DNA of 37,663 nt from a virus. This document shows positions 3,891-36,776 of this stretch, piece after piece. The translations under genes were made by a program, and so were the position numbers. The stretch spans positions 1 to 37,663 of IMG/VR virus record IMGVR_UViG_3300032081_000968; one strand, written 5' to 3'. The notes beneath the pieces were generated by a model that made no database searches, was not told where the DNA came from, and worked only from the letters and a program-made list of their open reading frames with translations. The stretch's first letter is position 1. The number at the start of each line of letters is the position of its first letter.

Positions 3891-4016
3891 ATGAGTGATT
3901 ATTATGATTGCGAGTTTGATTACTTAGCTAATCAAGAAGCTTTACAGAGACTTGATTATGAATTAACTGGTGAATTATGGCAAATACAAAACAAGGAGAA
4001 AAACAATGAAACGTAA
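3891..4016 (+). CDS. Small acidic protein, 41 aa
   Basis: The frame begins MSDYYDCEFDYLANQEAL and runs into the start of the Sak4-like gene, overlapping it by 11 bases. Its last codons contain the AAGGAG ribosome site of that gene, so translation is probably coupled. It is rich in Asp, Glu and Tyr. No family is recognised. Confidence 0.5.
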   Translation: MSDYYDCEFDYLANQEALQRLDYELTGELWQIQNKEKNNET

Positions 4017-4897: not shown

Positions 4898-5695
4898 ATG
4901 AATAATTTAACTAAATTAACAACCGTAGCACTCGTAAGTTATTCACTTATGGGCTGCTCACCTACTCCCGTAGACGCTGGAACTGAAGGCGTAGTTATAA
5001 AAAAACCTTGGATATTTGGGCATGGCGGTGTATCTGATGAGCCAATTCAAACGGGGTTGTCTTGGACAGCATGGTCTACACAAGTTCAACTTTATAATGT
5101 TAAGCCTGTCAAGCGACAAGAACATTTTATCGATTTGACAGCTAGTGATAATGTAGCTATAGACTTTATTGCTTACATTACCACGCAAATCAATAGGGGT
5201 AGCACACCAAAACTACATGAGAACTTTGGCACTGAATGGTACGAGAATAACCTGAGCGATGTCTTTAGAAAAGTTGTAAGAAACGAGGCTAGAGCTAGAA
5301 CATCTATAGAGCTACGCACTAACGAGAAGAGTATAGACGAGTTGCAAAACAAAGTGCTTGATATTACAACTGCATACATTCAAAAAGCTGGCTTGCCAAT
5401 AAAAGTCACTAAAGTAGTTATAGGTAAGGTTGTACCACCTGAGGAAGTACTCAGGGAAGCCGAAAGAACAGCTGCACAAAAGCAGCGATTAAAAACACAA
5501 GAGATGATACAGAAAGCCGAAGTTGCTAGAAAAGGAGCGGAAACCGCAAGAGCTTTAGCAGACAAGGCTTACATAGATGAGTTGGGCGTTACTGGCGATC
5601 AATACATTCGTCTTAAAGAGCTTGATATTATTGAGCAGAAAAAAGATGTTAGTGTGTACATGGGAATGTCCCCAGTACCTTTTAAACAATTTTAA
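4898..5695 (+). CDS. SPFH/band-7 (prohibitin-like) lipoprotein
   Basis: The product is 265 residues. The signal sequence ends in the lipobox LMGC, with Cys20 the likely lipidated residue. Residues 25-185 match the SPFH/band-7 fold: an N-terminal TEGVVIKK strand, the VARNEARART-like helix and PPEEVLREAERTAAQKQR leading into a long helical region to about 225. SPFH proteins form oligomeric membrane scaffolds that regulate proteases and channels. Most have a transmembrane anchor, so a lipid anchor is unusual. It lies between the Sak4-like and SSB-like genes in the early operon. A role in envelope protection, superinfection exclusion or lysis timing is possible but not shown. Confidence 0.8.
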   Translation: MNNLTKLTTVALVSYSLMGCSPTPVDAGTEGVVIKKPWIFGHGGVSDEPIQTGLSWTAWSTQVQLYNVKPVKRQEHFIDLTASDNVAIDFIAYITTQINRGSTPKLHENFGTEWYENNLSDVFRKVVRNEARARTSIELRTNEKSIDELQNKVLDITTAYIQKAGLPIKVTKVVIGKVVPPEEVLREAERTAAQKQRLKTQEMIQKAEVARKGAETARALADKAYIDELGVTGDQYIRLKELDIIEQKKDVSVYMGMSPVPFKQF

Positions 5696-6458: not shown

Positions 6459-6752
6459 ATGAACAAAATTAAAGATTTCTATTTTAATGCCTATGGCTTT
6501 GGCTATGGCTATGGCAGAGGCAAAGGTTGGGGTGGTCTCCTTGGTGATGGCGATGGCTGGGGCAATTTCTCTGGCTCTGGCTCTCACTTTGGCTCTGGTG
6601 ATGGCTGGGGCGTCTTCTATGGCTATGGCTATGGCTATAGCTTTGACGATGGCGATGGCTATGGCAGTGGTGGTGGTGGTGGCAATCGCTGGAGCGATGA
6701 CGATGCCACGGCTTTTGGCGATTCTGATGGCTCTTGCTATGAACATTGGTGA
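6459..6752 (+). CDS. Gly-rich array protein, unit A (97 aa)
   Basis: The protein begins MNKIKDFYFNAYG and then alternates Gly with Tyr, Phe, Trp, Asp or Ser (GYGYGRGKGWGG and so on). It ends in the acidic module WSDDDATAFGDSDGSCYEHW shared with unit E. A ribosome site (CAGGAAAAAG) precedes ATG 6459. Compared with unit E, a TGG codon has become TGA, so this copy stops earlier. Low-complexity Gly-aromatic sequence of this type is expected to be disordered or to self-associate. Function is unknown. Confidence 0.7.
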   Translation: MNKIKDFYFNAYGFGYGYGRGKGWGGLLGDGDGWGNFSGSGSHFGSGDGWGVFYGYGYGYSFDDGDGYGSGGGGGNRWSDDDATAFGDSDGSCYEHW

Positions 6753-6776
6753 TGTATTTACTACTTATCACTAAAT

Positions 6777-6801
6777 TTAACTTAACTTAACTTAACTTAA
6801 C
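6777..6801. repeat. Five tandem TTAAC pentamers
   Basis: Five perfect TTAAC copies, followed by a partial one, lead into the TAACTAAAGGAAC ribosome-binding module of the next gene. The same TAACTAA words occur less regularly before other units, for example at 8198-8220. Confidence 0.9.
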
Positions 6802-6818
6802 TAACTAAAGGAACTATT

Positions 6819-7208
6819 ATGACTATTAACATTAATGATCTAACTATTGGAGAAGCAAGAGAACTTGCTAACTTACTTGGCTATGAAAATACATCTTCTA
6901 ATTTATATAGTCGATTTATTGGCAAATATGTTATTTGCCGTACTCGAAATGAGGGTGTAAACGCTGGAAAAGTAATAGCAGCTGATGAAACAGGTGTAAT
7001 ACTAGAAGACGCAAGACGTTTATATTATCACAGACCTATTGACAGCTCTGTTAGTTGGTATGAGGGTGTTGCAAAATATGGTATATCTAAAGATTCTAAA
7101 CTTGCGACAGCAATAGAGAAATTAATTGTTGAAGATTATTCTCTTACTTTGTGTACTGCTAAGGCTGAAAAGTCTATTCGAGAAGCGAAAGACAATGAAC
7201 AAAGTTAG
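6819..7208 (+). CDS. DUF6948-like phage protein
   Basis: The product is 129 residues starting after AAAGGAAC. It opens with INDLTIGEARELANLLG, followed by a beta-rich part (GKYVICRTRNEGVNAGKV, LEDARRLYYHR) and a C-terminal segment with LCTAKAEKSIREA. This order matches the DUF6948 family of small phage proteins of unknown function. Its last 14 bases overlap the start of unit B, so the two are probably co-translated. I recall Gly-rich GYGDG-type proteins near such genes in other phages, which would make this a functional pair, but I could not verify that here. Confidence 0.7.
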   Translation: MTININDLTIGEARELANLLGYENTSSNLYSRFIGKYVICRTRNEGVNAGKVIAADETGVILEDARRLYYHRPIDSSVSWYEGVAKYGISKDSKLATAIEKLIVEDYSLTLCTAKAEKSIREAKDNEQS

Positions 7209-7503
7209 AGATTTGTATTTTAATGCCTATGGCTGTGGAGGTTCCCGTGGTTATGGCAATGGTCGTGGCTGGGGTTTCACTTACTATGGCGATGGCAATG
7301 TTTATGGCTTTAGCGATGGTCGTGGCTTTGGCTCTGGCTCTGGTTCTGGCGAAGGCGAAGTCGAGGGCTGGGGCTTTGGTTTTGGCCATGGCGAAGTCGA
7401 AGGCTGGGAAAATGTCTGTGGCTCTGGTGAAGTCTATGGCGATGGCTGGAACAGTGCCTCTGCTTATAATTTTGGCGATTTCTGTTTCTATAGCTATGAA
7501 TAG
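7195..7503 (+). CDS. Gly-rich array protein, unit B (102 aa, ends at an amber codon)
   Basis: It begins MNKVRDLYFNAYG and overlaps the end of the DUF6948-like gene. The core has the module GWGFTYYGDGNVYGFSDGRG and two GEVEGW motifs. The frame closes at TAG 7501-7503, but the same frame continues GWGNGSNNS to a TAA at 7531-7533, and this tail resembles the natural ends of other units. The amber codon is therefore either a recent nonsense mutation or a readthrough site. Function is unknown. Confidence 0.65.
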   Translation: MNKVRDLYFNAYGCGGSRGYGNGRGWGFTYYGDGNVYGFSDGRGFGSGSGSGEGEVEGWGFGFGHGEVEGWENVCGSGEVYGDGWNSASAYNFGDFCFYSYE

Positions 7504-7567
7504 GGCTGGGGCAATGGCTCTAACAACTCTTAACTAAAGGTGTTAATTATAACCGAGGAAAAAGAAA

Positions 7568-7849
7568 ATGAGCAAAGTTAGAGATTTATGTTTTAATAGC
7601 TATGGCTTTGGTTATGGCGATGGCGGGGGCAATTTCTCTGGCTCTGGCTTTGGCGATGGCTGGGGCTGGGGTTTCACTTACCATGACGATGGCAATGTTT
7701 ATGGCTTTAGCGATGGTCGTGGCAATGGCAAAGGCGATGGCGAAGTCGTAGGCTGGAGTTTTGGCTTTGGCGAAGGCGATAGAGATGGCGATGGCTTTGG
7801 CTTTGGCTCTGGTAATAGCAGTGGCGATGGCCATGGCTCTGACTACTAA
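7568..7849 (+). CDS. Gly-rich array protein, unit C (93 aa)
   Basis: It begins MSKVRDLCFNSYG, contains GNFSGSG (shared with unit A) and GWGFTYHDDGNVYGFSDGRG (shared with B and F), then GEVVGWSFGFGEG, and ends GHGSDY. A GAGGAAAAAG ribosome site precedes the ATG. The leader upstream keeps the TAACTAAAGG module, but its mini-ORF start has changed from ATG to ATA. Function is unknown. Confidence 0.7.
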   Translation: MSKVRDLCFNSYGFGYGDGGGNFSGSGFGDGWGWGFTYHDDGNVYGFSDGRGNGKGDGEVVGWSFGFGEGDRDGDGFGFGSGNSSGDGHGSDY

Positions 7850-7870
7850 TCATAACCGAGGAAGAAGACA

Positions 7871-8191
7871 ATGAACAAAGTTAGAGATTTGTATTTTAAT
7901 GTGGATGGCATTAGCTTTAGCAGGAGCGATAGTGATTGCGAGGGCGTTGTCTCTGGTTCTAGCTGTAATTATGGATTTATCTCTGGTCAAGTAATAACGG
8001 TAGATGAAATGTTAACGCTAATGTTTATGTTTTTGGTTCTAGTGACGGCTTTAGTTATGGCTATACGGATAGCGATAGCTAAGTGTAACAAAAATAAGCA
8101 ATTACACCTACGGAAAATAAAGACAATAAGCAAAGTTAGAGATTTGCATTTTGATGTGTATGATAAAGATTCTGACAGTGGTGATTGCTAA
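7871..8191 (+). pseudogene. Gly-rich array unit D: frameshifted hybrid of two decayed copies
   Basis: The frame opens MNKVRDLYFNVDG but is degenerate, and near 8010 it leaves the family frame. There it reads a hydrophobic stretch (MLTLMFMFLVLVTALVMAI), while the neighbouring frame still reads NVYVFGSSDGFSYGYTDSDS to a TAA. After that, the start of a further copy is fused in frame as ISKVRDLHFDVYD, its ATG changed to ATA. The 106-residue product would therefore be an accidental fusion with a membrane-like segment. I call it a pseudogene, but the frame is open and may be expressed. Confidence 0.65.
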
Positions 8192-8230
8192 CTGTAACTA
8201 AACTAAATTAACTAACTAAAAGAACTAATC

Positions 8231-8251
8231 ATGACCGAGGAAAAAAAATGA
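8231..8251 (+). promoter_or_regulatory. Mini-leader ORF MTEEKK coupled to unit E
   Basis: ATGACCGAGG begins a six-codon frame ending TGA that overlaps the ATG of unit E (ATGA). The GAGGAAAA inside the leader is the ribosome site for unit E. The same leader precedes unit F, which argues for selection or recent duplication. Confidence 0.55.
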
Positions 8252-8478
8252 ACAAAGTTAGAGATTTCTATTTTGATTGCCATGGCGATGGAGAAGTCGA
8301 TGGTTTTGGCAACAACAATGGCAGTAGCTCTGGCTATGGCTTTGGCAGTAGCTCTGGCAGTAGCTCTGGTTTTGGCTATGGTTTTGGCGAAGGAGGCTAT
8401 GACTGGAGCGATGACGATGTCACGGCTTTTGGCAATTCTGATGGCTCTTGCTATGACCGTTGGTGGCGTATTTACTGA
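8248..8478 (+). CDS. Gly-rich array protein, unit E (76 aa)
   Basis: It begins MNKVRDFYFDCHG and has a Ser-Gly core (GSSSGYGFGSSSGSSSG) with FG and YG dipeptides. It ends with the module WSDDDVTAFGNSDGSCYDRW shared with unit A, plus WRIY. Start at 8248 overlaps the leader stop as ATGA. Function is unknown. Confidence 0.7.
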   Translation: MNKVRDFYFDCHGDGEVDGFGNNNGSSSGYGFGSSSGSSSGFGYGFGEGGYDWSDDDVTAFGNSDGSCYDRWWRIY

Positions 8479-8513
8479 TTATCACTAACTTGCGATAACT
8501 AAAGGTGTTAATT

Positions 8514-8534
8514 ATGACTGAGGAAAAAAAATGA
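8514..8534 (+). promoter_or_regulatory. Mini-leader ORF MTEEKK coupled to unit F
   Basis: A six-codon frame with the same peptide as at 8231 starts after AACTAAAGGTG and ends in TGA overlapping the ATG of unit F. It provides the GAGGAAAA ribosome site for that unit. Confidence 0.55.
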
Positions 8535-8755
8535 ACAAAGTTAAAGATTTGCGTTTTAATGCATATGGCTATTTCGGTGGCGATGGTCGTGGCGATGGCT
8601 GTGGCTGGGGTTTCACTTACCATGACGATGGCAATGTTTATGGCTTTAGCGATGGTCGTGGCGATGGTCGTGGCGATGGCGAAGTCGTAGGCTGGAGTTT
8701 TGGCTTTGGCGAGGGCTATAGCGGAGGCTCTGGCTTTGGCTCTGACAACTCTTAA
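8531..8755 (+). CDS. Gly-rich array protein, unit F (74 aa)
   Basis: It begins MNKVKDLRFNAYG, followed by GWGFTYHDDGNVYGFSDGRG and GEVVGWSFGFGEG, and ends GFGSDNS. It is the shortest and cleanest unit and is closest to unit C. The downstream TAACTAAAGGCG module leads straight into the nonapeptide-repeat gene. Function is unknown. Confidence 0.7.
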   Translation: MNKVKDLRFNAYGYFGGDGRGDGCGWGFTYHDDGNVYGFSDGRGDGRGDGEVVGWSFGFGEGYSGGSGFGSDNS

Positions 8756-8770
8756 CTAAAGGCGTTAATT

Positions 8771-9805
8771 ATGACAAACAAACAACAAAAAAACAAAGCT
8801 AAATTGATAATAGATGAGTTAAAAGATGTTTTTGATCTAGCAACAGGCTCTTTTAATGAGTTCTATGAAAAAGCAGATAATAGCTCTTCTGGTTATAGAA
8901 GCACAGCTGTGTCTTCTGGTGATTATAGCAAAGCTGCGTCTTCCGGTGATAGAAGCAAAGCTGCGTCTTCTGGTAATTGTAGCAAAGCTGCTTCTTCTGG
9001 TAGGGGTAGCAAAGCAGCGTCTTCCGGTGAGTATAGCAATGCTGCTGCTTCTGGTAAAGGTAGCAATGCTGCGTCTTCTGGTTATGAAAGCAAAGCTACT
9101 TCTTCTGGTTTTGATAGCAAAACTGCGTCTTCCGGTGATAGAAGTACAGCAGCGTCTTCTGGCAAATATAGCAAAGCTGCATCTTCTGGTGAATATAGCA
9201 AAGCTACGTCTTCTGGGGATAAGAGCATATGTGCTGCAATCGGCTATAGAGCTGCTGTTAAAGGCGACTTAGGAAATTTGATAATGGCTTCGGAGTGCAT
9301 TTTTAAAAATGGTGAATATACACCTATAGGGGGCAAAGCTGACATAGTTGACGGAAAAAAACTTAAAGCTAATTGCTGGTACATTGTGGAAAATGGAAAC
9401 TGGGTAGAAGTGGACTTTACAGACAATCTATTTTCATATGTTATATCTACGAAAAATAACATTAAAAAAGTAAAGACTGAATCTGGTGAAGTTTTATTTG
9501 TTGTTAGTGACGATCAAGGCAATTCAGCACACGGTAAAACTATTAAAGAAGCTCAAGAAGATTTGATTTATAAAGTCAACGTTGACCTTAATGGGGAAGT
9601 TCCAGAATCAGCTACAGGTGCAGAGTGGGTAAGTATATATCGTGCTATAACAGGTGCTTGCTCTGCTGGTATTAAAGAATTTGTTAAAGAAATAGATAAG
9701 GATATTAACGATATATATACTGTTAAAGATATAAAAAATTTGGTAAAAGGACGCTTTGGTGAAGATGAATTTCTTAATGCCATAAATAAAAATAAAGGAA
9801 ATTAA
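8771..9805 (+). CDS. Nonapeptide-repeat protein with C-terminal phage domain
   Basis: The product is 344 residues. Residues 1-37 are helical. Residues 38-154 are 13 nine-residue repeats of consensus A-S-S-G-x-x-S-K-A, with a decayed fourteenth. The remainder is a mixed domain whose later part (SAHGKTIKEAQEDL, YRAITGACSAG, VKGRFGEDEFLNAI) I recognise from proteins of gut and Firmicute phages that also carry SG-x-x-S-x-A repeats. The regular Gly, Ser and Ala spacing suggests a beta-solenoid, like the YadA head. It uses the same ribosome-site module as the Gly-rich units. Function is unknown, and binding or scaffolding is inferred. Confidence 0.75.
   Translation: MTNKQQKNKAKLIIDELKDVFDLATGSFNEFYEKADNSSSGYRSTAVSSGDYSKAASSGDRSKAASSGNCSKAASSGRGSKAASSGEYSNAAASGKGSNAASSGYESKATSSGFDSKTASSGDRSTAASSGKYSKAASSGEYSKATSSGDKSICAAIGYRAAVKGDLGNLIMASECIFKNGEYTPIGGKADIVDGKKLKANCWYIVENGNWVEVDFTDNLFSYVISTKNNIKKVKTESGEVLFVVSDDQGNSAHGKTIKEAQEDLIYKVNVDLNGEVPESATGAEWVSIYRAITGACSAGIKEFVKEIDKDINDIYTVKDIKNLVKGRFGEDEFLNAINKNKGN
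8882..9232 (+). repeat. Thirteen 27-bp coding repeats
   Basis: Units of 27 bases (GCGTCTTCTGGTGATAGAAG-type) encode the nonapeptide array. Positions 5 and 6 of the peptide vary most (DY, DR, NC, RG, EY, KG, YE, FD, KY, DK), while Gly, Ser and Ala positions are kept. Confidence 0.95.
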
Positions 9806-30687: not shown

Positions 30688-32169
30688 TTAATTGAAAAAT
30701 TAAAAATAGATTTTCCCTTTTTTTGTGAACACTGTTTAAAAATAAAAACTAAAGATGCTACTTTAGAGCCTTTTGTGCTAAATGAAGCTCAGCAATATTT
30801 TTATAAAAAACTTAAGGAACAATTAACAAAAAAGGGTAAAGTAAGATTAGTCATTGTAAAAGGGAGACAACAAGGTTTATCTACCGTAATACAAGCTTTA
30901 TATTTTTGGAAAACAATATTTACACCAAATATTAACACTTTCATTTTAACTCATGAAGCAGAAGCAACTAAGAATTTGTTTACAATGACGAAAAGGTACT
31001 ATGATAATTTTCCTTACGAAATATCAACAAAAGAAGATAGTGCAAATTCTTTATATTTTGAGGGCTTGGAATCGGGCTATAAAGTTGGTACAGCAGGAAA
31101 TAAGTCCGTGGGACGATCGCAAACAATACAATTGTTTCATGGTTCGGAAGTTGCTTTTTGGCAACATGCAGACATGCATGGTGCGGGTATTATGCAAACT
31201 ATACCAAATAGCGATAATACTTATATCATCTTTGAATCAACAGCGTGTGGAATAGGCAACTTTTTTTATGATAAGTACAAAGAATCATTAACCAAAGATA
31301 GTGATTTTGATTTGGTTTTTGTACCGTGGTATTGGCAAAAGGAGTACAAAAGAGAAATGACAGAAGATTTTATTTTAACAGAAGAAGAGAAGCAATTAAA
31401 AAAAGTATATGGCATCACTGACGAACAAATAGCTTGGAGGCGTTATAAAATAAGAGAGCTTAACACTACAGGTGTTAAAGGCGAAGATAAATTTAAGGAA
31501 GAATATCCAATGAACCCTGACGAGGCGTTTATTGCTACAAACTTTAATGCTTATTTAGATGTAAACTTAATTAAAGATGCTATGGAAAAAGAGGAGCATG
31601 TTGAGCCGTACGGTGCAAGAATTATGGGTGTAGATCCTTCTGGTTCAGGAAAGGACAAAACAGGCTTTTGTATTCGTAAAGGTAGGGTTGTTGAAAAAAT
31701 ATTTGATTTAAACACGCAAGACGAAATGGAAGTTGTAGGCTTAGTTATGAAATACATTAACGATTATAGAATTGATTTCGTTTTTGTAGATAGCATTGGC
31801 ATTGGTAGTGGCATAATTTCTAGACTTAAAGAGTTAGAACATTCAGAAAAAATAATGAGAGTTAATAGCTCAGAAAACGCATTAAATAGAAATGACTATA
31901 GCAACTTAAGGGCTGAGATGTGGTCAAAATGTCGAGAATGGCTTGAAGATACACCATGTAAAATACCAAACGACCCAGAGCTTTTAAATCAAATGGTTAG
32001 CGTAGGGTATAAAGCTGACTCTAAAAATCGTTTATTAATGGAGAAGAAAGAAGACATTAAGAAAGAAGGAAGACCATCACCTGACAAAGCTGACGCATTA
32101 ATGTATACATTTGCTAGACCTGTATCATTAGTTGATAATAAACCAATTCCTGTTATTAAACGTATTTAA
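30682..32169 (+). CDS. terL: Terminase large subunit
   Basis: The product is 495 residues. The ATPase half has Walker A-like KGRQQGLST (about 60-68) and the region IQLFHGSEVAFW (near 150-160). The nuclease half has IMGVDPSGSGKDKTGF (Asp near 316), VFVDSIGIGSG and SPDKADALMY near 466. It packages DNA into the prohead through the portal. It is the only late gene on the plus strand, and its stop overlaps the stop of the convergent pseI by 4 bases. Confidence 0.95.
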   Translation: MKLIEKLKIDFPFFCEHCLKIKTKDATLEPFVLNEAQQYFYKKLKEQLTKKGKVRLVIVKGRQQGLSTVIQALYFWKTIFTPNINTFILTHEAEATKNLFTMTKRYYDNFPYEISTKEDSANSLYFEGLESGYKVGTAGNKSVGRSQTIQLFHGSEVAFWQHADMHGAGIMQTIPNSDNTYIIFESTACGIGNFFYDKYKESLTKDSDFDLVFVPWYWQKEYKREMTEDFILTEEEKQLKKVYGITDEQIAWRRYKIRELNTTGVKGEDKFKEEYPMNPDEAFIATNFNAYLDVNLIKDAMEKEEHVEPYGARIMGVDPSGSGKDKTGFCIRKGRVVEKIFDLNTQDEMEVVGLVMKYINDYRIDFVFVDSIGIGSGIISRLKELEHSEKIMRVNSSENALNRNDYSNLRAEMWSKCREWLEDTPCKIPNDPELLNQMVSVGYKADSKNRLLMEKKEDIKKEGRPSPDKADALMYTFARPVSLVDNKPIPVIKRI

Positions 32170-33203
32170 AGTTTTAATGGCTGACCAGATTCATAATCTT
32201 TTTTTGAAGCTGTGCCTAATATTGATTCATAATCATTTAAATTACGCCCTATATTCCCACGTAAAATCTTTATATTACTTTCTGTAAATATATCGCCTTT
32301 ACTAATCGTCTCAGTCACCCAAATTGATCTTTGCAAAACTCTGCATTTTAACAACTTATCTTTTTCATTTTTTTCTTTATAAGTCACATTATCAACTAAA
32401 TTCTGCAACTCAATACTATCTATAGAAAACTTTTCATCTAAAGTTGGGAACTTACTTGTTTTGATAACTGGCTTGCCATCAAATTTAAAATGTTTTTCAA
32501 TTACTCTTGCACCACTATAATAAGCACCCACTGCAAAATCTATACCAATAGAATGATCTGAATATCCATTGTAAGAAGTGCCAAACTTACTCCAAAAACT
32601 ATTCATTCTCTTAATATGGTAAATATTTTTTGGCGATGGATAGTCATTCACGCAGTAAAAAGGCACTACATAATTATCACAATTTAATAAAATATCATAT
32701 ATATGGTCTTCAATAATTCCATAAGGAAAAGATATTAATATTGGCTTACCTGTTTTTATAACTTTCTTAATCAACTGTGTATAATTAGATTCGCTTGCAG
32801 ATATTTTATAAGCCATGCAATCTAATTCTTCTAAAAAATCTACTGTCTTTAAATCAAACACTGAAGAAAAACAATCAATACCTAGTTCTTTAGACAGTTT
32901 AAAAGCATCCTTAAAGTAATCATAAAAAGTTTGTGCTTCTTCATATATTTTATATAAAGTTTTTTTATTCCACTCACTTAAACGAGGGCTTTTATTTTTA
33001 CAAGCCATTACGTCTGGAGTATACGCCTGTAATTTTACGGCATTTGCACCAGAAGCAGCAGCGTTGCGAATCAGCTGCATTAAATTTTGCCTATTGCCTC
33101 CATGATTACACGATATTTCAGCTATAACATATGCATTGTCTTGCTCAATTCCTAAATCTAAATTCTTTAAATGAGTTGTTAAATCAACCTTGTTATTTTT
33201 CAT
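32166..33203 (-). CDS. pseI: Pseudaminic acid synthase
   Basis: The product is 345 residues from ATG 33203. The GTG at 33215 is less likely. The NeuB-family barrel shows AEISCNHGG (28-36), KLQAYTPD (57-64), CFSSVF, CMAYKISASESNY and ARVIEKHFKFD. The C-terminal SAF domain (RSIWVTETISKGDIF) completes the fold. YTPD after K-Q, and the SKFPTLDEKFSID segment, resemble PseI more than sialic-acid synthase NeuB. It condenses the 6-deoxy-diacetamido sugar with phosphoenolpyruvate to give pseudaminic acid. It ends the Pse operon. Confidence 0.88.
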   Translation of the reverse strand: MKNNKVDLTTHLKNLDLGIEQDNAYVIAEISCNHGGNRQNLMQLIRNAAASGANAVKLQAYTPDVMACKNKSPRLSEWNKKTLYKIYEEAQTFYDYFKDAFKLSKELGIDCFSSVFDLKTVDFLEELDCMAYKISASESNYTQLIKKVIKTGKPILISFPYGIIEDHIYDILLNCDNYVVPFYCVNDYPSPKNIYHIKRMNSFWSKFGTSYNGYSDHSIGIDFAVGAYYSGARVIEKHFKFDGKPVIKTSKFPTLDEKFSIDSIELQNLVDNVTYKEKNEKDKLLKCRVLQRSIWVTETISKGDIFTESNIKILRGNIGRNLNDYESILGTASKKDYESGQPLKL

Positions 33204-33387
33204 CAACTTTGTCACAAATCATTTCCTCTACAATTTCGTTAATTTTCTTATCTTTACTATATATTTCTTTTAATAATATACTCGCTTCTTCTGGCGCATA
33301 CTTAAAAGCTAACCTTAGCACATCCATCCAATTTTTATTATTTTCAGACCTAATAACTTCTATTTTATCTATTAATTTATTATTCAT
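33193..33387 (-). CDS. Small Pse-operon protein, 64 aa
   Basis: ATG 33387 overlaps the acetyltransferase stop, and the 3' end overlaps pseI by 11 bases. The product MNNKLIDKIEVIRSENNKNW continues MDVLRLAFKYAPEEASILLK and is all helical. I have the impression that similar short proteins with NNKNWMD accompany nonulosonate genes in marine bacteria, but could not check it. Tight overlap on both sides implies a role linked to the pathway. Confidence 0.65.
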   Translation of the reverse strand: MNNKLIDKIEVIRSENNKNWMDVLRLAFKYAPEEASILLKEIYSKDKKINEIVEEMICDKVDEK

Positions 33388-33928
33388 TTGGATACCTATT
33401 GCTAAAATTACGAACATAAATGTCTAAATTACTATGTATTGCAATACTTGCAGCGTTGTTATATTCGACATGACCTATAATCATATAATCATTGCGGTAA
33501 TTATTTTTCTTTTTAAAATATTCTAACCCAAGTCTGCACAACGCTGTACCTAATTTAGGAAAATTATACTTTGTGTTGAATGTGTAAAAACTCCATTCAT
33601 AAAAAGTATTTATATTTTCTAAAAACTCATCTGGAATAGATCTAATAAATTCAGGATCATCAATAATCTTAAAATTTATATATCCTAAAGGCTGCTCTGG
33701 ATAATTATAAGAATATAAAATTAAAGTAGCACCACCATAAATATTTTCGATTTCGTTTTGTTTTTTTAGAAAATTTACATGCTGTGAAAACGTAGGAACC
33801 TCTTTAGACTTTAGAAACTTCATTACTCGTTCGCTAAATCTTTCGTCATAAAGTTTTTGTAATATTTCACAATCAAAGCAGTTATGACTCTTTAACTCCT
33901 TAAAATAAAACTCATCATTCATTCGCAT
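33380..33928 (-). CDS. pseH: PseH-like GNAT acetyltransferase
   Basis: ATG 33928 follows AGAGG at 7 bases. An ATG at 33949 would overlap the upstream gene. The product is 182 residues with a GNAT fold: LGYINFKIID, the strand TFYEWSFYTF (compare AEWGFY in PseH), then LGTALCRLGLEYF and VEYNNAASIAIHSNLD. PseH acetylates the 4-amino group of the PseC product using acetyl-CoA. Assignment is supported by the neighbours. The substrate cannot be proved from sequence. Confidence 0.75.
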   Translation of the reverse strand: MRMNDEFYFKELKSHNCFDCEILQKLYDERFSERVMKFLKSKEVPTFSQHVNFLKKQNEIENIYGGATLILYSYNYPEQPLGYINFKIIDDPEFIRSIPDEFLENINTFYEWSFYTFNTKYNFPKLGTALCRLGLEYFKKKNNYRNDYMIIGHVEYNNAASIAIHSNLDIYVRNFSNRYPNE

Positions 33929-33938
33929 TTTACTACCT

Positions 33939-34679
33939 CTAATGTGCATATTTAAGTATTTGTTTTAAATCTGCGTTCATAAAAGCTAATTCTATGTCAC
34001 TTAGTTTATTTATTAACTTAATATTTTTATTTAACTTACATTTTCTTTTAGCATATTTAGTAAAAATTTTCTTTATGTTTCTTAAATCATTTGGATAATC
34101 AACAGTCCATCTTAAATCTGATAAATTGTAATTGCATGACATATAATCCGAATTTGAAACTAGCTCTACTCCAAAATACTTTTTCATAAAAGGTGTAACG
34201 TGTTCTAGATCATATGTACAAATAGCCTCGTTATAAGTTACTTCTAAAGCTTTCATCGTAAATATTTCACAATCTAAGCCACGCGGATAAGATCTTTCTG
34301 GAAAAACATTTGATATAAAATCCCTCATTTCTTTCATATGAACTTTTAACATTTTTGTTGCTAATTTATGATCGAATAACGGACAGTCACTTGTAATTCT
34401 AATAATATTATCTGCATCATATAAAGTAGCTGTTTGATAATATCTTTCTAAAACGTCTATCTCTGAGCCAACAGTAAATTCAATACCATTATCTTTACAA
34501 AGTTTTTGAATGTTTTTACTATTTTCAGTAGTAGCTATCACCACCTTTTGCACACCTTTAATTTTTAAAGCTCTATAATAAACATGCTCTAAAACAGTAA
34601 ATACACCAATCTTTCGCAATACTTTTTTGGGAAATCTATTAGAGTTTTCTCTTGCTTGAATTATTACAATATTTCTCAT
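33939..34679 (-). CDS. Nonulosonate cytidylyltransferase-like protein (SpsF/PseF type)
   Basis: The product is 246 residues. IIQARENSNRFPKKVL (7-22) is the nucleotide-binding loop of the CMP-sugar synthetase family, followed by VVIATTENSKNI, GSEIDVLERYYQTA and IIRITSDCPLFD. The fit is closer to SpsF than to classical PseF/NeuA. SpsF-type genes occur in many Pse and legionaminic-acid clusters. It should activate the sugar with CTP. Its start shares one base with the pseC stop. Confidence 0.82.
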   Translation of the reverse strand: MRNIVIIQARENSNRFPKKVLRKIGVFTVLEHVYYRALKIKGVQKVVIATTENSKNIQKLCKDNGIEFTVGSEIDVLERYYQTATLYDADNIIRITSDCPLFDHKLATKMLKVHMKEMRDFISNVFPERSYPRGLDCEIFTMKALEVTYNEAICTYDLEHVTPFMKKYFGVELVSNSDYMSCNYNLSDLRWTVDYPNDLRNIKKIFTKYAKRKCKLNKNIKLINKLSDIELAFMNADLKQILKYAH

Positions 34680-35809
34680 TACATATGATCCTTAATTAAA
34701 TTAATTATTAAATCTTGTTCTTCAAAGGTTAAGCTCGGATATAAAGGCAATGTTAAACACCTTTCATAATAATTATCTGCATTTGGCGTTTGATAAGTGA
34801 TATCACTCTCAATGTAATAAGAATTTCTTGTAACAGGTCTATAATGGACATTAGTAACAATTTGATTGTCTTTTAACAATTCATATATTCTATATCGTTG
34901 CTGAGCATCCTTAAATAGAACAACATATAAATGCCATGCGTGGTAACAATCTACGTTAGTCTCTGGTAAAGATAAATAAGTATCAGAAAAAGCTTTAGTA
35001 TACCTTTCAGTTAACTCATTCCTTTTTTGCACAAATTTATCTAATTTTTTTAATTGGCTTATACCTAGAGCTGCTTGTATATCAGTTAATTTAAAGTTGA
35101 AACCTAACTCTTTTTGGTCGTATCTCCATTCATTTTTATACATAGAGATTCCGTTATTGCGTTTCCGCTTTAAAAGACTAGCTAAATAACCATCTTTTGT
35201 AGCAATTAATCCACCTTCCCCAGTGGTTATAACCTTAGTTGCATGAGTGCTAAACACGCATAGATCACTGTATTTACAACTACCAATATAATCATCTTTG
35301 TACTTACCACCTATCGCATGAGCAGCATCTTCTATAACCGCAAAACCATAAATTAAAGACAACTCATTTAACTTTTTCATATCACAACATTGTCCTGCAA
35401 AATGCGTAACTATAATAATATCTGGCAAATCATTAGGATCAGTTAAAGATAATTTATATTCTAGCAATTGCATGCTCATGTTGTAATCAACTAACGATAT
35501 ATCAACAAAGTCTACATTCTTTGTTAAATGCAAAGCTGCATTGCTGGTAGCAACAAAAGTATTTGGTGTAGTCCAAACGTTAATATTTTTTTTATGTATA
35601 AATGTAGTTAAAACTTCAACAGCAAGTATCAAACCGGATGTAGCACTATTAACAGCCACAACATGCTCGCAATTTAACTTACTTGCTACTGCTTTCTCAT
35701 ACTCAGGTACCTTATCACCTCCAGTAAGAAAACCACTTCTTAAAACATCTGTTACAGCCTTAATGTCATCTTCATCAATTTGATGCTTAGTATATTGTAT
35801 CGTCTTCAT
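34679..35809 (-). CDS. pseC: UDP-4-keto-6-deoxy-sugar aminotransferase
   Basis: The product is 376 residues of the DegT/DnrJ/EryC1 family. PLP-binding features are SATSGL (55-60), EDAAHAIGGKY (160-170) and Lys192 in STHATKVITTGEGG. RSGFLTGGDKVPEYE matches the family N-terminus. PseC makes UDP-4-amino-4,6-dideoxy-N-acetyl-altrosamine from the PseB product. It overlaps pseB by 23 bases, so translation is coupled. Confidence 0.9.
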   Translation of the reverse strand: MKTIQYTKHQIDEDDIKAVTDVLRSGFLTGGDKVPEYEKAVASKLNCEHVVAVNSATSGLILAVEVLTTFIHKKNINVWTTPNTFVATSNAALHLTKNVDFVDISLVDYNMSMQLLEYKLSLTDPNDLPDIIIVTHFAGQCCDMKKLNELSLIYGFAVIEDAAHAIGGKYKDDYIGSCKYSDLCVFSTHATKVITTGEGGLIATKDGYLASLLKRKRNNGISMYKNEWRYDQKELGFNFKLTDIQAALGISQLKKLDKFVQKRNELTERYTKAFSDTYLSLPETNVDCYHAWHLYVVLFKDAQQRYRIYELLKDNQIVTNVHYRPVTRNSYYIESDITYQTPNADNYYERCLTLPLYPSLTFEEQDLIINLIKDHM

Positions 35810-36776
35810 AAATCATCGCCTTTATTTCTTCCACAGTTAAAAAATCACTATTAGTCCCAGAGTTGTACTCAAAATTATCAGGCACAACAACACCTTCATA
35901 TTCTAAATCTTTATCAAACATGTTGATCGTAGGTTTAATAATAAAACTATCTTTACTTTCTAAAGTTAGTGAGCTTAGCTCTGCTGGACACATCACTTCA
36001 TCTATTTTCTCTCCAGACCTTAAACCAACAATATCATAAAGTCTACTTCCAGACATAGCTTCTACTAAATCTAATATTCTGATACTTGGAATTTTTGGTA
36101 CAAAAGTTTCAGCACCTTGCATTCGATAAAAAGCAAAATCAACAAAACTTAAAGCGTGATCCATAGTAATTATAAATCTTGTCATTTTTGGGTCAGTGAC
36201 AGGCAGTACACGCACACCATCACTCAACAACTTTTTAAAATAAGGTACAACAGAACCACGAGAATTTAAAACGTTACCATATCTAACAACACTAAATCTA
36301 GTACCACAATTACCAGAAATATTATTTGCAGCAATAAACAATTTATCGCTAACAAGTTTTGTAGCACCATATAAGTTTATAGGATTTACGGCTTTATCAG
36401 TACTTAAAGCTATAACTTTTTTAACGTTGTTTTTTATTGCTGCACTAATTACATTCTTTGCGCCGTTTACATTAGTATTTACGCACTCAGAAGGATTGTA
36501 TTCAGCAGTATCAACTTGCTTTAACGCAGCAGCATGAATAACATAATCTACACCTTTAAAAGCTTCATCTAACCTTGAAGAGTCCCTAACATCACCAATA
36601 AAAAAACGCAATCTAGAATCATCTAAAGACTTAGACATCGTATACTGTTTATATTCATCTCTAGAATAAATAATTACTTTTTTAGGATCATAAGTTAATA
36701 GAAGCTTAGCATAAGCATTACCAAAAGAACCAGAACCACCAGTTATCAAAATAATTTTATCTTTAAAAACATTCAT
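35787..36776 (-). CDS. pseB: UDP-N-acetylglucosamine 4,6-dehydratase (inverting)
   Basis: The product is 329 residues of the extended short-chain dehydrogenase family. GGSGSFG (13-19) binds NADP, with SRDE (38-41), GDVRD, AALKQV and STDKA (125-129) beside YGATK (136-140). RYGNVLNSRGSVVPYF then LRSGEK follow, all PseB hallmarks. It catalyses the first committed step toward pseudaminic acid. AAAGG precedes the ATG and a promoter lies at 36808-36836, making this the first gene of the operon. Confidence 0.93.
   Translation of the reverse strand: MNVFKDKIILITGGSGSFGNAYAKLLLTYDPKKVIIYSRDEYKQYTMSKSLDDSRLRFFIGDVRDSSRLDEAFKGVDYVIHAAALKQVDTAEYNPSECVNTNVNGAKNVISAAIKNNVKKVIALSTDKAVNPINLYGATKLVSDKLFIAANNISGNCGTRFSVVRYGNVLNSRGSVVPYFKKLLSDGVRVLPVTDPKMTRFIITMDHALSFVDFAFYRMQGAETFVPKIPSIRILDLVEAMSGSRLYDIVGLRSGEKIDEVMCPAELSSLTLESKDSFIIKPTINMFDKDLEYEGVVVPDNFEYNSGTNSDFLTVEEIKAMIYEDDTIY

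Follow-up and report, generated by a model that had tools for sequence, protein, structure and literature searches.

The window analysed here, a virus record, is 37,663 bases long, and an array of Gly-rich mini-protein genes spans its positions 6459-8755 (Table 1). Five units of the array are intact; another is frameshifted, and there is one relic that lacks a start codon. A preliminary description of this DNA had listed six units, and their placement was confirmed, with ATGs at 6459, 7195, 7568, 7871, 8248 and 8531, the open reading frame of unit 2 being extended further upstream, to a TTG, in the ORF list. The array is real, but the unit at 7871 is decayed and there is an additional start-less copy. 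The same coordinates also enclose a gene of the DUF6948 family, which was absent from that description.

Table 1. Features of the Gly-rich array and its partner gene in the window
Feature	Position	Strand	Description	Pfam E value
Unit 1	6459-6752	+	(Gly-X)-type mini-protein, 97 aa, module B; upstream of the DUF6948 gene	
DUF6948 gene	6819-7208	+	PF22253; predicted Sm/LSm-like beta barrel; between units 1 and 2	1.3e-12
Overlap	7195-7208	+	14 nt; start of unit 2 with end and stop of the DUF6948 gene (conserved -13 arrangement)	
Unit 2	7195-7503	+	102 aa, module A; head ATG at 7195	
Unit 3	7568-7849	+	93 aa, module A	
Unit 4	7871-8083	+	Frameshifted relic, head intact; Gly/Tyr tail NVNANVYVFGSSDGFSYGYTDSDS in other frame	
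Unit 4b	8126-8191	+	Short relic ISKVRDLHFDVYDKDSDSGDC; ATA in place of ATG	
Unit 5	8248-8478	+	76 aa, module B	
Unit 6	8531-8755	+	74 aa, module A	
Module A copies	7271-7326 (unit 2), 7668-7723 (unit 3), 8607-8662 (unit 6)	+	GFTYxxDGNVYGFSDGRG	
Module B copies	6691-6742 (unit 1), 8405-8456 (unit 5)	+	WSDDDxTAFGxSDGSCY	

The head pattern of the units has five matches in the window and none in 100 shuffles. The common 13-residue head described earlier thus recurs as a pattern, but in its exact form it is found in the unit at 7195 only, the remaining heads being off by 2-4 residues. In the bodies, Gly alternates with Tyr, Phe, Trp, Asp, Ser or Asn, more loosely than in the arrays that we found elsewhere. 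Gly makes up 22-33% of each unit, and GGC accounts for 74% of the Gly codons in the units as compared to 17% in the other genes of the window. Searches of Pfam and PHROGs with the array units gave nothing significant.

Two sequence modules are distributed among the units. The copies of module A in the units at 7195, 7568 and 8531 are identical at 54-56 of 56 nucleotides, and those of module B in the units at 6459 and 8248 at 50 of 52. This near-identity at the DNA level agrees with the earlier view of two modules shuffled between units, although module A lies mid-unit and is not C-terminal as had been thought. The near-identical modules, the duplicated 5' regions, the relics, and the occurrence of just one unit in the closest relative that we found (L020, which has AAA ATPase and SSB-like genes in common with the window) all point to duplication and recombination in this phage, and traces of duplication, exchange and decay are visible within the array at the level of its sequence.

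Two further features adjoin the units. A six-codon open reading frame (MTEEKK) occurs at 8230-8250 and again at 8513-8533 (+ strand), overlapping the starts of units 5 and 6 through an ATGA, and may be a leader or a leftover of the duplicated start region. Directly after the array, the gene at 8771-9805 (+ strand) encodes about a dozen 9-residue repeats (SKAASSGxx) followed by a non-repetitive C-terminus; it matches phrog_27197 and phrog_4433, both of unknown function, with YdhT below the cut-off.

The partner gene of the window scores 48.2 bits against the DUF6948 profile (curated cut-off 27) and is by this measure a member of PF22253, an entry that gives no function. An AF2 model of DUF6948, built with 65 relatives, reached a pLDDT of 91, and the listed PDB matches of this model in Foldseek were all Sm/LSm or Sm-containing spliceosomal chains, with a modest best E value of 2.7e-3 and a TM-score to target of up to 0.75. 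Independently of this model, the 65 members gave weak Pfam matches to SM-ATX (8 members), LSM12 (2) and LSM14 (1), all of them sub-threshold (best values 0.005, 0.013 and 0.045, respectively), and a PDB profile search with DUF6948 returned no sequence match. DUF6948 likely has an Sm-like fold. It resembles Sm/LSm/Hfq proteins in this predicted fold, but the Sm motif residues differ, and an invariant Arg and an ARRxW-type motif are its own. Since the mean net charge of DUF6948 is -0.6, which is not clearly basic, a simple charge attraction to an acidic repeat protein or to nucleic acid is not supported.

Relatives of the array were found by searching with the neighbouring DUF6948 gene rather than with the repeats. 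A direct tblastn of a unit against phages gave no match, as expected from low-complexity filtering, and a unit-based search of viral contigs retrieved no relatives. The DUF6948 search led to 78 distinct loci, with Pectobacterium, Vibrio, Iodobacter, Neisseria, Ningiella and Nitrosomonas-assigned contigs among the hosts and sources. In 73 of these loci a (Gly-X)n gene starts between -25 and +11 nucleotides of the DUF6948 stop, and in 68 its start overlaps DUF6948, most frequently at exactly -16 (44 loci) or -13 (16 loci), corresponding to overlaps of 17 or 14 nucleotides. The frame of the repeat gene relative to DUF6948 is the same in 67 loci. Four of the five loci with no repeat at the DUF6948 stop are contig ends, and in the fifth (L012) the repeat gene lies upstream. 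Such a fixed overlap suggests translational coupling, and judging from this gene arrangement the repeat gene is probably translated by coupling to DUF6948.

Two loci that match only the N-terminus of DUF6948 (L058 and L072) were left out of the 78. Both have, starting near position 4001, a DUF6948 gene cut down to its N-terminus, and after it a gene whose low-complexity repeat is of another kind, C-[YSFH]-[GD] (CYGCYGCSDCFDC...); it looks as though one type of repeat had taken the place of another.

The linkage also holds in the reverse direction. A scan of viral contigs that used only the DNA pattern (GGC K M T)n and took no account of DUF6948 yielded at least 120 stretches; for arrays with at least 450 bases upstream, we counted DUF6948 genes within 1.7 kb on the same strand. 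Among the matches listed, DUF6948 was near 56 of 59 arrays in which X mixes aromatic, acidic and small polar residues, as compared to 2 of 28 unmixed arrays (Fisher p about 1e-16). Two of the three exceptions proved to have DUF6948 by Pfam, raising the mixed count to 58 of 59 among the matches listed; the remaining one (L191) is an array that reaches a contig end. A two-gene cassette, consisting of DUF6948 and a (Gly-X)n mini-protein, is thus well supported. The array in the window appears to be an expanded, diversified copy of this widespread phage cassette, which seems to have gone undescribed: a search of the open-licence literature returned nothing on DUF6948 or its (Gly-X)n partners except a repeat table for one Iodobacter phage (see below). 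The duplication and recombination "within one phage" proposed before is supported here but is too narrow a frame, since the cassette is widespread and tied to DUF6948.

Many of the IMG/VR viral contigs retrieved by the scan begin or end inside such an array; these repeats therefore probably break metagenome assemblies and are under-reported.

We computed within-array diversity by codon position for 71 arrays beside DUF6948. Its median was 0 throughout the Gly codon and at X position 3; at X positions 1 and 2 it was about 0.5. The fixed bases depend on the phage: most arrays use GGC-NNT or GGC-NNC, and others GGA-NNC, GGT-NNT, GGT-NNC, GGG-NNT or GGG-NNC, so that the same peptide pattern is made from different DNA. 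Gly codon choice in the arrays is also strongly unlike that of other genes at the same loci. The use of GGA, GGT or GGG by other phages rules out that GGC codons serve as a translational sink.

At the protein level, aromatic, acidic and small polar residues (Tyr/Phe, Asp, Ser/Asn) are all present at X in 71 of 71 arrays, and Lys or Arg make up 1%. Ser, Tyr and Asp dominate, and Phe accounts for only 51 of about 2,300 X residues, which sets the arrays apart from FG nucleoporins, with FG, FxFG or GLFG as the dominant motif. Identical X neighbours are below random expectation (0.27 vs 0.32, p = 0.008). For a repeat unit, AF2 gave no fold (pLDDT 34 with 6 sequences, weak evidence by itself); in its low-complexity Gly/Tyr/Ser composition with no fold it resembles FUS- and silk-like proteins. 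That the cassette exists and is constrained at the protein level is nearly certain.

Within this constraint the repeat changes rapidly. In three of the seven Pectobacterium phages compared (Ymer, Abuela and Amona) the DUF6948 gene is identical at the DNA level; the repeat cores of Ymer and Abuela are the same, that of Amona is different, and that of Taid, with a DUF6948 gene 99.7% identical, is different again, all length differences among the seven cores being multiples of 6. In Neisseria prophages, 52 pairs have DUF6948 genes at least 99.5% identical and none of these has identical repeat DNA, although the repeats of L096 and L099 look identical as protein. The clearest case is a locus with five tandem units (L125), in which the head DNA is identical and the tails are at most one base apart, while the five cores all differ, in steps of 6. 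Draft genomes may contain misassembled repeats, a caveat to these comparisons, but such errors can hardly explain this locus. Tandem families like that of the window also occur at five further loci (L054, L154, L183, L191 and L222), and the longest internal repeats in arrays exceed those of shuffles, which fits block duplication.

The earlier observation of a conserved head with a variable body therefore extends to other phages. The head differs in other lineages (for example MEKI.EFL and MSYLDQP) and is thus lineage-specific. Its conservation is not fully explained as a by-product of the overlap with DUF6948, since non-overlapping units keep it as well. As for the "diversification under selection" that was suggested, composition and Gly alternation are indeed kept as order and length turn over, but selection for diversity itself does not follow from these comparisons.

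The company of the cassette points to early recombination or replication. A raw tally of the neighbours (136 proteins at 37 loci) had RecE/YqaJ exonucleases, RecT, Erf, AAA_24 and SSB as its most frequent families, and in the window itself an AAA_24 ATPase and an SSB-like protein are encoded upstream of the array. Between these two lies the gene of a protein that has a Band_7/SPFH domain and begins like a lipoprotein (4898-5695, + strand). Far from the array, the region 32166-36776 (- strand) likely represents a pseudaminic acid pathway in the phage genome; it encodes PseB above the NCBIfam cut-off, PseC just below it, a PseI-like synthase below cut-off, a cytidylyltransferase (PseF-like by position) and an unassigned protein resembling acetyltransferases.

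How might such a gene pair function? The first gene would encode a small Sm/LSm-like beta-barrel protein, and the second, overlapping its end, a protein in which a short head precedes a (Gly-X)n body that has Tyr/Phe, Asp and Ser/Asn at X. From its composition it is plausible that this body self-associates, either as a silk-like two-faced beta sheet or as a FUS-like gel, in which Tyr would act as the sticker and Asp would keep the protein soluble. A two-faced beta strand, as in silk, needs strict alternation with a free X face, and FUS-type gels use Tyr with Gly or Ser neighbours. DUF6948 would bind nucleic acid or the repeat protein, and early in infection the two may surround phage nucleic acid with a scaffold or condensate. 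In this phage, copies of the repeat gene have multiplied through duplication and module exchange. If, as we propose, the protein depends on composition and alternation alone, the order of its residues is unconstrained and can change rapidly, and constant composition with free order fits silk- and FUS-type materials. An Sm-like DUF6948 with a self-associating, silk- or FUS-like partner, acting as a scaffold early in infection, is therefore our working proposal, and it is a tentative one. Its broader form, in which many phages and prophages use an Sm-like protein to bring a self-assembling Gly-X repeat protein into a scaffold or condensate within the cell, with the repeat remade so quickly that its core differs between relatives whose neighbouring gene is identical, is somewhat more doubtful.

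The phage repeat resembles the (GX)n of silk fibroin and the [G/S]Y[G/S] domains of FUS-type proteins in its strict Gly alternation, Gly-flanked Tyr and Ser-richness, but is much shorter, is encoded by a separate gene, has Asp/Asn in place of Ala, is carried by phages and is hypervariable, and its assembly is putative. The variable regions of diversity-generating retroelements also show variation at two codon positions in a constant frame; phage arrays differ in that the change consists of re-ordering a small set of residues and altering the length, in 6-nucleotide steps. The gene families found included no reverse transcriptase.

A less probable reading is that the repeat serves in counter-defence or as a host-factor decoy, a multivalent bait that disables a host protein, with DUF6948 as its adaptor and turnover as the means to escape recognition. 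A small gene in the early region, rapid core turnover beside an invariant gene and patchy multi-copy expansions could all be accounted for in this way. However, composition is nearly equal across phages of very different hosts, which is unlike a specific arms-race binder, and residue order seems to be irrelevant, making such a role unlikely in our judgement.

A role in the virion or outside the cell, where a silk-like protein would coat, glue or pad the particle or the lysed cell surface, has still less in its favour. The strict (GX)n alternation would suit it, and in Pectobacterium phages the pair adjoins tail genes, albeit on the opposite strand. Yet the heads of arrays beside DUF6948 show no secretion signal, the most frequent company of the cassette is recombination genes, and in the window it sits in the early region; we hence consider this role quite improbable.

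The only earlier record of such an array that we found treated it as DNA. In Iodobacter phage phiPLPE, a GC-rich (KMGCCG)35 repeat was tabled as a DNA repeat, taken to be non-coding and speculatively put forward as an attachment site (PMC3391216). This repeat (46,046-46,255) coincides with a repeat ORF overlapping phiPLPE_84, and is an array of the same type as those described here. If the repeat were an attachment site, a hotspot of recombination or a signal for packaging, its place among recombination genes would make sense, and so might the many contigs that end in an array. But assembly breaks explain these ends; arrays in complete phages are internal, with phage genes on both sides; and the frame is open from a fixed overlapping start. 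Moreover, the arrays of different phages have no DNA in common, the bases at the fixed sites varying while the peptide stays the same. A function as a DNA element is thus very unlikely. Marginally harder still to credit is that the arrays are neutral simple-sequence junk staying open by chance downstream of DUF6948, for despite their turnover by block duplication and the decay of two of the seven copies in the window, all arrays keep three residue classes, one of which is lost after a median of 116 events in a crude neutral duplication/deletion simulation, unmixed runs elsewhere mostly lack DUF6948, and identical neighbours are avoided.

These results turn an unannotated low-complexity oddity, of a kind easily missed because low-complexity filters mask it, into a defined and widespread gene pair with a testable partner. 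Even if the proposed mechanism is wrong, a gene that reshuffles beside a 100% identical one provides a clean setting in which to study how repeats turn over and how composition is constrained. If the scaffold proposal is true, these phages would encode a material in which rapid variation is built in, amounting to a natural library of many (GX)n designs, and the cassette would represent a bacterial-virus counterpart to the Sm/low-complexity assemblies of eukaryotes.
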